A DNA stretch of 64,000 nt from Aureibaculum algae (GTDB lineage Bacteria > Bacteroidota > Bacteroidia > Flavobacteriales > Flavobacteriaceae), in the NCBI RefSeq assembly GCF_006065315.1, contig NZ_CP040749.1:2060501-2124500 (forward strand). Direction: 5' to 3'. Positions 13,824 through 56,588 of the stretch are shown one piece after another; positions within the stretch are counted from its first letter, which is position 1, and each line of letters starts with the position of its first letter. The translations under genes and the position numbers were made by a program. The notes beneath the pieces are model-generated. The model was not told the DNA's origin. It made no database searches and worked only from the letters and a program-made list of their open reading frames with translations.

Positions 13824-14252
13824 TTATTTTACCTCAATCAATCGAGCTGGTTTTGGTTTTGCTTCTTCACGTTTAGGAATTGCAATACTCAATTCTCCAT
13901 TAGTGTAAGTTGCTTTAATTTTATCATTATCTACAATGTTTTTTGGTAAATTAAAACTTCTTTTAAAAGATTGATAACTGTACTCTCTTCGTGTATAATT
14001 ATCTTTTTTCTCTTCATTTTCTTCATTTTTCTCTGAAGAAATTGTCAATACGTCATTATTTAAATCAATATTGAAATCTTTTTTGTCCATTCCTGGAGCT
14101 GCTAAATTTACTGTAAATCCGTCTTCATCTTCTTTGATATTTACAGCAGGTAAACTTGTATTGGTTTCTGAAAAATTAGTTGAAGACCAATCTCTAAATA
14201 AATTGTCAAATACTGTTGGTATTACAGGAACACCATTGCTTTTTACTAACAT
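13824..14252 (-). CDS. Small heat-shock protein, Hsp20/alpha-crystallin family
   Basis: At 142 residues it has the usual size of bacterial Hsp20. The alpha-crystallin domain spans about residues 35-130, with VNIKEDEDGFTVNLAAPGM, DFNIDLNNDVLTI, the RRE-YSYQSFKRSFNLP segment and NGELSIAIPKRE. A C-terminal tail with basic and Pro residues follows. It is an ATP-independent holdase that keeps unfolding cytoplasmic proteins soluble. It is a single gene with its own terminator. Its upstream region carries two GACATTTTGTC-type boxes 31 bp apart, an arrangement shared with clpB. Confidence 0.95.
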   Translation of the reverse strand: MLVKSNGVPVIPTVFDNLFRDWSSTNFSETNTSLPAVNIKEDEDGFTVNLAAPGMDKKDFNIDLNNDVLTISSEKNEENEEKKDNYTRREYSYQSFKRSFNLPKNIVDNDKIKATYTNGELSIAIPKREEAKPKPARLIEVK

Positions 14253-14614
14253 AATAATTTATTTTTAAATTAAACTTTTTTTATTTGTTAGGTGTAAAGC
14301 AAATTAAATACCAATTGGTGATTTATGATATTTTGTCACTTTTTTATTTACGGTAAAGACATTTTGTCTCTTGATAGCTAGGTGTTTATGACTTTTTTTC
14401 AGGTTTTTAAAAAAAATGAGGGCATCTGTATTTGATATTGCAGATATATAATTGCCAATCAAAAACAAGATGAATGAATTCTATGTATCGTCAATCGGTA
14501 ATTAATAATAATATCGAAAAATGTATTTCATAATTGTTTGAGCATCTCAATTTAATAGGAGTGCCTCATAATGTTTCAATGCGAACAATTGTTTTTTAAG
14601 TATGTAGTTAAATT
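14253..14614. other. 362-base intergenic region upstream of hsp20
   Basis: No gene seen. The part nearest hsp20 holds the two boxes described at 14327-14368 and must hold its promoter. The rest is AT-rich trailing DNA after the S9 peptidase stop at 14615. Confidence 0.6.
14327..14368. promoter_or_regulatory. Paired heat-shock box upstream of hsp20
   Basis: GATATTTTGTC (14327-14337) and the perfect interrupted palindrome GACATTTTGTC (14358-14368) have starts exactly 31 bp apart; the near copy begins 75 bases before the hsp20 ATG. The clpB promoter region carries the same pair at the same spacing (24911-24952). B here and the distal clpB copy share 14 identical bases, GACATTTTGTCTCT. A shared transcription-factor site is the likely reading. 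Confidence 0.6.
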
Positions 14615-22260: not shown

Positions 22261-24849
22261 TTATTTATTTCTAAAAACCAATTCGTCATCAAAAGCATCG
22301 AGAAGTATGGAGCTATTATCAACTACTTTACCCGCTAAAATTTCTTTAGATAATTCGTTTAACACTTTACGTTGTATCACCCTTTTTATTGGTCTTGCAC
22401 CAAATTGTGGATCAAATCCTTGGCGTGAAAGACTTTCAACAGCTTCATCTGTGGTGCTTAATGCAATTCCCTTATCAGCTAACATTTTTATTAAACCATT
22501 CAATTGTAATTTTACAATTTGAGTAACTTCAGCTTTGTTTAAAGGCGTAAACATCACTATTTCATCAATCCTATTGATAAATTCAGGTCGAATTGTTTTA
22601 CGTAAAAGGCCTAATACATCTACTTTTGTAGCTTCAGTTACCTGTTCGCGTTTATTCATGTCAAACTCTTTAAAATTCTCTTGTATAATGTCAGAACCCA
22701 TGTTTGAGGTCATAATTATTATAGAGTTTTTAAAATCAGCTACACGACCTTTGTTATCAGTAAGTCGTCCTTCATCTAATACCTGTAATAAGATATTAAA
22801 GGTATCAGGGTGTGCTTTTTCAATCTCATCCAACAGAATAACTGAATAAGGTTTACGTCTAACAGCTTCAGTCAATTGTCCACCTTCTTCATATCCAACA
22901 TATCCCGGAGGTGCTCCAACCAATCGGCTTACCGCATGACGCTCTTGATATTCACTCATATCTATTCTAGTCATGGCACTTTCATCGTTAAATAAATATT
23001 CTGCCAACGCTTTTGCTAATTCTGTTTTACCAACCCCTGTGGTTCCTAAAAACAAGAAACTACCCACTGGTCTTTTGCTATCTTGTAATCCGGCTTTTGA
23101 ACGTCTTACCGCATCAGCTACCGCTTCAATAGCCTCATTTTGACCAATTACACGGTGGTGCAATTCATCTTCTAAGTGTAGCAATTTTTCACGTTCGCTT
23201 TGTAGCATTTTCTGAACTGGAATACCCGTCCATTTTGCAACAACTTCTGCAATATCTTCAGCCGTAACTTCCTCTTTTATTAAAGCGTTATCTTGATTAC
23301 TCAATACATCTTTTTGAAGTACCGCTAACTTTTCTTCTTCTTCTTTTATTTTACCATAACGAATCTCTGCAACTTTACCATAGTCACCATTACGCTCTGC
23401 CTTATCGGCCTCAGTTTTATAATCATCAATTGCTTTTTTAGCAGCCTGAATTTGATCTACAACTTCTTTTTCGCTTTTCCATTTTGCATAGATACCTTCA
23501 CGATCTTCTTTTAAATTAGCAACTTCTTCTTTTAAGCTTTTCAGTTTTTTCTCGTCCTTTTCACGTTTTATGGCTTCAATTTCAATTTCTAATTGCATTA
23601 TTTTACGATCTAATGCATCTAACTCTTCAGGTTTAGAATTGATTTCCATACGTAATTTTGCCGCAGCCTCATCCATTAAATCAATCGCTTTATCTGGTAA
23701 AAATCGATCTGTGATATACCGTTGCGAAAGTTCAACTGCAGCAATAATAGCATCATCTTTAATTTGTACTTTATGATGCGTTTCATATTTATCTTTAATA
23801 CCACGTAAAATTGAAATAGCACTTTCAGTATCAGGTTCATTAACCACTACTTTTTGGAAACGACGTTCTAACGCTTTGTCTTTTTCAAAATGTTTTTGGT
23901 ATTCATCTAAAGTGGTTGCTCCAATGGCACGTAATTCACCTCTTGCCAATGCAGGTTTTAAAATGTTTGCAGCATCCATTGCTCCTTGTCCACCACCAGC
24001 ACCAACTAGCGTATGAATTTCATCTATAAACAATACAATTTGTCCATCAGCACCAATTACTTCTTTTACAACTGATTTTAATCTTTCTTCAAATTCACCT
24101 TTATATTTTGCACCCGCAATAAGGGCACCCATATCTAAGGAATAAATAATTTTATCTGCTAGGTTTTCAGGTACATCACCTTTTACAATTCGATGAGCTA
24201 AACCTTCTGCAATGGCTGTTTTACCTACGCCAGGTTCACCAATTAATATTGGATTATTTTTTGTTCTTCGCGATAAGATTTGTAGAATTCTACGAATTTC
24301 TTCATCACGACCAATAACAGGATCTAACTTCCCATCACTAGCCAATTGATTTAGGTTTTTACCATATTTACTTAAAGCGTTATAAGTATCTTCAGCACCT
24401 TGACTTGTTACTTTACTACCTTTACGGAGTTCGGCAATAGCCGCTTTTAAATCCTTCTCTGTTACTCCATTATCTTTAAATAATTGAGTAGTGTCACCCT
24501 TAGATTTTGTTATGGCTAATAAAATATGTTCAATTGAGATATACTCATCTGACATTTTCTTCGCAATATTTGCGGCATCAGAAAGCATTGTTCCCGCAAC
24601 TCTTGAAAGCATTAATTCGCCTCCAGAAACTTTGGGGAAACTAGCAATTATATTATCTAATGTTTGTTTGAAAATATCAACATTTACGCCTAACTTATTA
24701 AGCAAAAAAGGTATTACATTCTCATCAACCTCAAAAATACCTTTTAAGATATGTGCATTCTCTATTTGTTGATGTCCTAAGCCTTGTGCAATTTGCTGAG
24801 CTTGTTGCACTGCTTCCTGCGATTTTATTGTATAATTATTTAGATTCAT
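22261..24849 (-). CDS. clpB: ATP-dependent disaggregase ClpB
   Basis: At 862 residues it has the standard ClpB length. Order: Clp N-terminal repeat domain (1-150), first AAA+ domain with Walker A GEPGVGKT and sensor [11 protein letters not shown], the long middle coiled coil (about 400-525, rich in Lys/Glu, absent from ClpA), and a second AAA+ domain with GTTGVGKT and [13 protein letters not shown]. It works with DnaK to pull proteins out of aggregates. No ClpP-binding loop is expected. It is a single heat-inducible-type gene. The divergent region to ytxJ carries two boxes of the GACATTTTGTC type that also precede hsp20. Confidence 0.98.
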
Positions 24850-24910
24850 CTTTCTTTTTTATTACAGCAGATGCAATTAGTGTTCCATTCGTAACAAAAA
24901 TTAGTTAAGC

Positions 24911-24952
24911 GACAAAATGGCTGCAAGGCCCTTGTTTTAGAGACAAAATGTC
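24911..24952. promoter_or_regulatory. Paired heat-shock box upstream of clpB
   Basis: GACAAAATGGC (24911-24921) and GACAAAATGTC (24942-24952) have starts 31 bp apart, exactly as upstream of hsp20. The near copy begins 62 bases before the clpB ATG. The distal copy is the perfect palindrome in both genes. The directional core ATTTTGTCnCT runs with clpB here but against hsp20 there, which a symmetric site would tolerate. Confidence 0.6.
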
Positions 24953-55616: not shown

Positions 55617-56588
55617 ATGCGAGAAGCGGCTTTTGTAAAAAAACATAAGGAAAGATGGCAGTTATTTGAAAATGTGCTATCCAACCAACAACAAATTTCG
55701 CCCGATAAATTATCTGATTTATACATAGAAATTACAGATGATTTGAGTTATGCCAAAACCTTCTATCCTAAAAGTAATACTGTAAAATACTTAAATACAG
55801 TAGCGTCTACTGCTCATAGAAAGATTTACAAAACAAAAAAAGAAGGAAAGAATAGACTTGTTAGTTTCTTTAAAACGGAATTTCCTTTAGCGTTTTATGC
55901 CCATCGTAAACAATTATTAATTGCGTTTTTAGTATTTGCATTTTTTACCATAGTAGGTGCTTTTTCTGCTGCTAAAGATGGTGACTTTGTGAGGCTTATA
56001 CTTGGTGATTCTTATGTGAATATGACTCTAGAAAATATTGCCAAAGGTGATCCAATGGCTGTTTATAAGCAGGAAGGCGAAACGGCAATGGCGGTTTCAA
56101 TAACTATTAATAATATAAAAGTAGCCATGTATGCTTTTCTATTGGGGATGTTATTCTCTGTAGGTACGCTGTATATAATGATGCGAAATGGTATCATGTT
56201 AGGTTCCTTTTTGTATTTTTTTTACGACAATGATTTACTATGGGAATCAACCCGTACCATTTGGATCCACGGTACCATAGAAATTTCGGTGATAGTGATA
56301 GCCTCATGTGCGGGAATGGTATTAGGTAATGGTCTCCTTTTTCCGGGAACGTATACCCGATTAGATTCTTTTAAACGCAGTTTCAAGGCGGGGTTAAAAA
56401 TTATGGTTAGTACCATTCCGTTTTTTATTGTCGCAGGTTTTTTAGAAGGGTTTGTGACAAGACATACAGAAATGCCAGATTGGTTGGCTTTATTAATTAT
56501 AGCGGCCTCCTTATTTAGTATATTATATTATTACGTTTATTATCCAATCAAATTAACCAAACAAAATCTAGAATATGGAGAATCATAG
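55617..56588 (+). CDS. SpoIIM-family membrane protein
   Basis: A 323-residue protein. A soluble N-terminal region with basic stretches (FVKKHKERWQLFENVLSNQQ) is followed by an early helix (LLIAFLVFAFFTIVGAFSA) and a SpoIIM-type helical bundle with NNIKVAMYAFLLGMLFSVGT, WIHGTIEISVIVIASCAGM and GTYTRLDSFKRSFKAG. Outside sporulating bacteria these proteins accompany MoxR/DUF4129 clusters. It overlaps the next gene by 14 bases. Confidence 0.9.
   Translation: MREAAFVKKHKERWQLFENVLSNQQQISPDKLSDLYIEITDDLSYAKTFYPKSNTVKYLNTVASTAHRKIYKTKKEGKNRLVSFFKTEFPLAFYAHRKQLLIAFLVFAFFTIVGAFSAAKDGDFVRLILGDSYVNMTLENIAKGDPMAVYKQEGETAMAVSITINNIKVAMYAFLLGMLFSVGTLYIMMRNGIMLGSFLYFFYDNDLLWESTRTIWIHGTIEISVIVIASCAGMVLGNGLLFPGTYTRLDSFKRSFKAGLKIMVSTIPFFIVAGFLEGFVTRHTEMPDWLALLIIAASLFSILYYYVYYPIKLTKQNLEYGES

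Follow-up and report, generated by a model that had tools for sequence, protein, structure and literature searches.

The question raised by this locus is what controls hsp20 and clpB of Aureibaculum algae, two heat-shock genes that each carry a pair of palindromic boxes upstream in the 64,000-nucleotide stretch of DNA analyzed here (the window). Bacteroidota form one of the major bacterial groups of the gut and the environment, and to our knowledge no clear cis-element and regulator have so far been assigned to the control of their heat-shock genes. A preliminary description of this DNA proposed that the pairs may be the missing heat-shock operator. The boxes indeed belong to a conserved element of heat-shock promoters, but they are not a free-standing operator and are most likely sigma-54 upstream activator sites. 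We consider it highly probable that the boxes serve sigma-54 heat-shock promoters as upstream activator sites, with a protein designated E3 as the likely activator.

Because hsp20 and clpB are both on the minus strand, both pairs lie upstream of their genes, with the perfect palindrome farther from the gene in each case (Table 1). The preliminary description correctly placed a two-copy box in the hsp20 promoter region, at 14327 and 14358 with a 31-bp offset, and a pair with the identical offset at clpB. It was also right that the distal copy is perfect and the proximal one degenerate at both genes (8/8 versus 7/8 palindrome positions). The 14-base agreement that it saw between the distal copies (GACATTTTGTCTCT) is real, but runs antisense to hsp20 and sense to clpB.

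Table 1. Features at the hsp20 and clpB promoters and the sigma-54 activators of A. algae. Positions are those of the window except for E1 to E3; letters of the paired boxes are in gene sense; gap, bases from box to TGG; centre, relative to the predicted start.
Feature	Position	Strand	Letters	Plus-strand letters	Description
hsp20 gene	13824..14252	-			small heat-shock protein, Pfam PF00011
hsp20 promoter	14299..14313	-	TGGTATTTAATTTGC		sigma-54 type -24/-12, GG-N10-GC, 13 bases past proximal box
hsp20 proximal box	14327..14337	-	GACAAAATATC	GATATTTTGTC	7/8; gap 13; centre about -45
hsp20 distal box	14358..14368	-	GACAAAATGTC	GACATTTTGTC	8/8; gap 44; centre about -76
hsp20 possible third, weak box	14390..14400	-	GAAAAAAAGTC		6/8; gap 76; centre about -108; in phase
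clpB gene	22261..24849	-			AAA+ disaggregase; ClpB_D2-small, Clp_N and AAA domains (Pfam)
clpB promoter	24873..24887	-	TGGAACACTAATTGC		sigma-54 type -24/-12, GG-N10-GC, 23 bases past proximal box
clpB proximal box	24911..24921	-	GCCATTTTGTC	GACAAAATGGC	7/8; gap 23; centre about -55
clpB distal box	24942..24952	-	GACATTTTGTC	GACAAAATGTC	8/8; gap 54; centre about -86
E1	L122:1081-2241 (G000)				REC-AAA response regulator, no HTH or other DNA-binding domain
E2	L123:1096-2457 (G000)				REC-AAA-Fis (receiver domain and Fis-type HTH)
E3	G000:C1:1261197-1262441 (L124:1465-2709)				415 aa; AAA+ PF00158 and Fis-type HTH (HTH_8), no sensor domain

As single words, the boxes are mildly unusual in the window, since at most one mismatch yields five matches where 1.7 are expected and only 3 of 100 shuffles reach five. 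Across the 5.17-Mb A. algae genome, GACA-N3-TGTC is found at 11 places and the reversed pattern at 28, so the box by itself is not enriched there. Nine of the 11 copies are in coding sequence, and the two that are intergenic by the ORF listing are those at hsp20 and clpB. Likewise, GACAAAATGTC showed no visible excess over its reversed control in 100 related genomes. On these grounds, the box by itself was rejected as a signal. The relaxed pair GANANNNTGTC-N20-GANANNNTGTC has a single match in the A. algae genome, at hsp20.

What the preliminary description missed is a TGG-N10-GC element that follows each pair in the gene-sense reading. Sigma-54 promoters carry a -24/-12 signature with the consensus TGGCAC-N5-TTGCA/T, and the TGG-N10-GC/GA element that marks a sigma-54-dependent promoter is present at both hsp20 and clpB. 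On both strands of the window, exactly two sites combine a sigma-54-like element with a box of 7/8 or better within 80 bp, namely, hsp20 and clpB. Transcription is predicted to start at about 14287 for hsp20 and about 24861 for clpB. A sigma-54-like element was present in 27 of 30 hsp20 upstream regions from A. algae and its relatives, and a near-box, by a looser rule, within 250 bp in 18 of the 30.

The box and the promoter taken together form a signal that recurs across the class. A strict pattern demanding perfect boxes, GACANNNTGTC-N8..38-TGGNAYNNNNWTTGM, matched 58 times in 47 of 100 relatives versus 2 reversed-control matches, and 70 times in 64 of 395 genomes of the class versus 1. The 128 distinct matched strings included 20 inside a same-strand ORF, which were left out of the gene tally. 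Six of the other 108 had no downstream ORF of at least 60 aa, leaving 102 matches in the tally; a few retained matches sit under an opposite-strand ORF. Core chaperone or protease genes follow in 90 of the 102. The matches should not be counted as fully independent, coming as they do from related genomes. Sequence signatures identified dnaK (38), htpG (29), groES (2), and clpB (2), and Pfam identified HSP20 (13), Lon (3), GrpE (1), a ClpC-type protein (1), and FtsH (1). The matches are therefore concentrated at chaperone and protease genes and not spread over random genes; a spread of that kind is what the preliminary description had named as refuting its reading. The remaining Pfam identifications were LemA (2), thioredoxin (2), and a Zn-peptidase, SecA, and Bax1-I (1 each), and five downstream ORFs had no Pfam match. 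In one or two genomes each, the box-plus-promoter arrangement thus also precedes genes for LemA, thioredoxin, zinc metallopeptidase, and Bax1-I, which suggests a wider stress regulon. The gap between box and TGG in the 108 matches was 12 to 14 in 79, 22 to 24 in 20, 32 to 35 in 4, 11 in 3, and 15 to 16 in 2. Fifteen of the 20 strings inside same-strand ORFs had a gap of 18, all of them in birA homologs. Words identical or close to GACATTTTGTC, with a sigma-54-like word after them, turn up repeatedly in birA coding sequence, a trap for motif scans. One other left-out string (L227) may be a real dnaK promoter beneath a spurious ORF.

The clpB upstream regions, anchored on the promoter only, revealed how boxes and promoter are arranged. 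We collected 129 such regions, 49 from the relatives and 80 from named records (Flavobacterium, Polaribacter, Aquimarina, Pedobacter, and others). Setting aside one region of less than 150 bp, 45 that lacked a promoter anchor, and one duplicate left 82 for analysis. With a box defined as at least 7/8 palindrome positions, the 82 distinct promoters contained 110 boxes in 74 promoters, whereas 100 dinucleotide shuffles yielded 2.3 on average and never more than 8. The gaps clustered at 12 to 14, 23 to 24, 33, 44 to 45, 53 to 56, 75 to 76, 86, and 95. The best period in the range of 9 to 12 bp was 10.5 bp, with a resultant length R of 0.95, and R was 0.93 when the nearest gap group was omitted. 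The earlier idea that the two copies occupy one face of the DNA is thus borne out, and the 31/32-bp pair, by its sequence spacing, is three helical turns, one of several in-phase spacings. The fixed 31-bp pair did not hold up as the hallmark, and we rejected the exact distance as diagnostic, because boxes also occur singly or in pairs spaced by other whole turns, gaps of 13, 23/24, 33, 45, 55, 76, and 86 bp are all found, and a pair at 30 to 33 bp is present in only 21 of 83 anchored clpB upstream regions. Which copy is the perfect one also differs among species. The closest named ClpB relatives of the A. algae protein are from Flavobacteriaceae, at 80% at best.

Conservation in related species, the other point on which the preliminary description had staked its reading, also came out in favor of that reading but is incomplete. 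The element at clpB and hsp20 is kept in many relatives, but 45 of 128 clpB upstream regions of at least 150 bp, including six listed ones from Chryseobacterium, had no promoter anchor by the rule used, and a near-box was limited to the 18 of 30 hsp20 regions given above. The unanchored clpB regions count against universality of the element, and it may have been lost at clpB in the Chryseobacterium lineage.

Within the A. algae genome, the strict pattern had no match because the proximal boxes are imperfect. A half-box plus promoter pattern matched 34 times versus 28 for its reversed form and is unusable by itself as evidence of enrichment. Thirty of the 34 had a locus and were classified, the four without one being left out. 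Six of the 30 lay outside ORFs of at least 100 aa, and four of the six had a gene start within 200 bp. Those four sites precede htpG (HSP90-like ATPase by Pfam), dnaK (HSP70), clpB, and a gene for a small membrane protein (Phage_holin_4_2). The htpG site has a 7/8 box at gap 13 from the promoter element, and the dnaK site has a 7/8 box at gap 44. A possible further member of the regulon is the small PF04020 membrane protein gene (G000:C1:797962-798003), whose sigma-54-like element has a TGTC half box at gap 23. Two further hsp20 paralogs in the genome do not have the box-plus-promoter arrangement. In the first codons of lon (LON domain), GACAATCTGTC was judged a chance occurrence, there being no box of at least 6/8 upstream of its promoter-like element. 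In other genomes lon does carry the box-plus-promoter, with three members having the LON domain.

A sigma-54 promoter requires RpoN and an activator, and candidates for both are widespread. RpoN (PF04552) is encoded at G000:C1:403858-404334 in A. algae and is found in 98 of 100 genomes, the two without it being 71% and 83% complete. A. algae encodes three sigma-54 activators (PF00158), designated E1, E2, and E3 (Table 1). An E3 ortholog is present in 98 of 100 genomes, the two without it being 68% and 86% complete, and E3 persists in single-contig genomes as small as 345, 624, and 630 kb. In A. algae its gene lies between a MiaB-type gene (miaB) and lptE. E3 has the features of an NtrC-class protein, namely, PF00158, a GAFTGA loop, and a Fis-type HTH. 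The loop reads GSFTGA in A. algae and GAFTGA in the consensus of 16 sequences, in which F90, T91, G92, and A93 are invariant. The HTH (ELGISERTLYRKIK) is near-invariant, and the linker preceding it varies except for a conserved helix around EREILYKVLFDM. That helix could be a docking site.

We surveyed the activators of 23 genomes, mostly picked for having few candidates and some of them incomplete (G051, 91%; G065, 88%). Eight had one activator, always E3, 11 had two, and four had three. In all 11 genomes with two, the second protein ends right after the AAA lid and lacks an HTH, as judged by inspection, Pfam having been run on the A. algae protein alone. In 19 of the 23 genomes, therefore, no activator other than E3 has a DNA-binding domain. 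Strict matches are present in seven of those 19, at hsp20, dnaK, or grpE, with one further match that has no downstream ORF. By elimination, E3 is likely the protein that binds the boxes. A. algae itself has a second DNA-binding activator, E2, so the argument by elimination works only in the other genomes. The HTH-less second activators of the 11 genomes are similar in length to E1.

The alternatives differ in what they take the boxes to be bound by, if anything. One would keep them as sigma-54 activator sites but assign them to E2, or to E1 with a partner, instead of E3. A. algae does have three PF00158 proteins to choose from, E2 combines a receiver domain with a Fis-type HTH, and an adjoining ORF, which resembles a sensor kinase by eye but whose available piece has no Pfam match, would supply a sensor. 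However, E1 has no HTH, E2 adjoins an outer-membrane efflux gene (PF02321) and has a GSFTDA loop that departs from the usual GAFTGA, and the distribution of HTH-bearing activators favors E3 in the 19 genomes described above, including the seven with strict matches. We therefore regard a binder other than E3 as improbable. We give still less weight to the boxes being operators of a repressor released by heat in the manner of HrcA, HspR, or CtsR, with the likeness to a -24/-12 promoter being secondary, and we consider this very unlikely. Perfect palindromes near chaperone promoters are typical of repressor operators, and the nearest boxes, at -45, are close to the polymerase. However, the 10.5-bp phasing to GG-N10-G and the position of the box upstream of the promoter, not over it, fit activation, and a sigma-54 promoter requires an activator in any case.

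The known repressor sites also do not account for the boxes. The CIRCE operator is TTAGCACTC-N9-GAGTGCTAA and the HAIR operator is CTTGAGT-N7-ACTCAAG. In the 64-kb window, CIRCE had no match with up to three mismatches, and HAIR had one, at 56011 with three mismatches, versus 2.6 expected, that is, at chance level and far from hsp20 and clpB. Neither was found at the two genes, and both were rejected as the identity of the boxes. HrcA/CIRCE and HspR/HAIR likewise place palindromic boxes at heat-shock genes, but their sequence and half-site spacing differ from those seen here. Least probable of all, to the point of being negligible, is that the pair is a repeat that arose by chance in an AT-rich genome or reflects ordinary coding or shared-ancestry conservation. 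In its favor, GACATTTTGTC by itself is not rare in the window and not enriched genome-wide, nine of the 11 genomic GACA-N3-TGTC copies are coding, and birA gives recurrent false matches (15 distinct strings). However, the box-plus-promoter is far above its reversed control (58 versus 2 and 70 versus 1), and the matches lie at nonhomologous genes of one function. Moreover, the ancestry of one site fails to explain the 10.5-bp periodicity, because the gaps found include 13, 23, 33, 45, 55, 76, and 86. By computation, at least, we judge this reading refuted.

An activator-site role of the boxes at sigma-54 heat-shock promoters is thus strongly supported by the sequence comparisons. The DNA itself shows the boxes (consensus TGACA-N3-TGTCA) and how they are phased, the -24/-12 element, the set of genes concerned, and that RpoN and E3 are encoded; from this we infer binding by E3, activation, and heat as the signal. 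In the proposed mechanism, one dimer of an NtrC-class activator, likely E3, would occupy each palindrome. Two or more boxes at whole turns from one another and from the -24/-12 element would allow the dimers to come together on the same DNA face and contact the RpoN polymerase across short, stiff DNA, from centres near -45/-55 and -76/-86. The phasing would be strict because the short DNA between box and promoter does not twist freely. Promoter opening would be driven by ATP hydrolysis of the activator, an ATP-driven remodeling of the RpoN polymerase that is expected from the protein class of E3. How E3 might sense stress is a guess; it could be titrated by a chaperone, perhaps via the conserved helix between the AAA+ lid and the HTH.

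Sigma-54 -24/-12 systems with NtrC-class enhancers include NtrC at glnA and PspF at pspA. The arrangement here resembles such enhancers in its GG-N10-GC promoter, in tandem palindromes about three turns apart, and in the pairing of RpoN with an AAA+/Fis activator, and the dyad-symmetric site is repeated at whole turns, at 31/32 bp and other in-phase spacings. It differs in that the targets are core heat-shock genes and in that the boxes are much closer to the promoter. Known enhancers are typically, not obligatorily, about 80 to 150 bp upstream of the start, and the centres at about -45/-76 (hsp20) and -55/-86 (clpB) do not conform to that distance. E3 is like PspF in joining AAA+ to a Fis-type HTH with no sensor domain of its own, but it falls below the NCBIfam PspF cut-offs (270.9 versus 443.55 bits for TIGR02974; 224.7 versus 529 bits for NF008622), carries a long insertion ahead of the HTH that includes a conserved helix, and has cytosolic chaperones as inferred targets. 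The gene set is nearly that of the RpoH (sigma-32) regulon of Proteobacteria (dnaK, grpE, groES, htpG, clpB, ibp/hsp20, lon, ftsH, and trx), but sigma-54 is a different class of sigma factor and needs an ATP-driven activator.

Sigma-54 control of these genes has been predicted before. Sigma-54 promoters were predicted to be enriched at genes for GroEL, IbpA/Hsp20, GroES, GrpE, DnaJ, and DnaK, with the chaperone-gene enrichment peaking in Flavobacteriia, and were also predicted at the proteases COG0542, COG0466, and COG1066 in Flavobacteriia and Bacteroidia (Carrera-Reyna et al. 2025; PMC12316311). A term search of the main text of that article found no mention of activator sites or enhancers, and the parts seen describe no activator box, phasing, or cognate activator. 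Among the matches listed in the open-access literature, taken by titles and abstract openings and including few subscription papers, no such box or activator was described in Bacteroidota. Thus, sigma-54 control of Bacteroidota heat-shock genes is an existing prediction, and the box, its phasing, and the likely binder appear to be new.

A broader proposal, toward which we lean only slightly, is that in Bacteroidia the core heat-shock regulon is under RpoN and a dedicated E3 instead of sigma-32, with E3 acting on face-locked boxes, restrained by chaperones, and kept in endosymbiont-size genomes (345 and 624 to 630 kb). Sigma-54 is usually linked to nitrogen, motility, and envelope stress. If the proposal is true, sigma-54 would run core protein quality control, from activator sites unusually near the promoter and in strict helical phase, and the system of RpoN and E3 would be so basic that even genomes of that size keep both. 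For Bacteroidota heat shock, the analysis offers a box, a promoter class, a gene list near the sigma-32 regulon, and one candidate activator. Two gene neighborhoods may be recorded in addition. The E1 gene sits between a gene for an MscS-type channel and genes for a peroxiredoxin and a thioredoxin. In the window, a bacilliredoxin gene (PF11009; 25060-25431) is divergent from clpB, and the two share a common upstream region.
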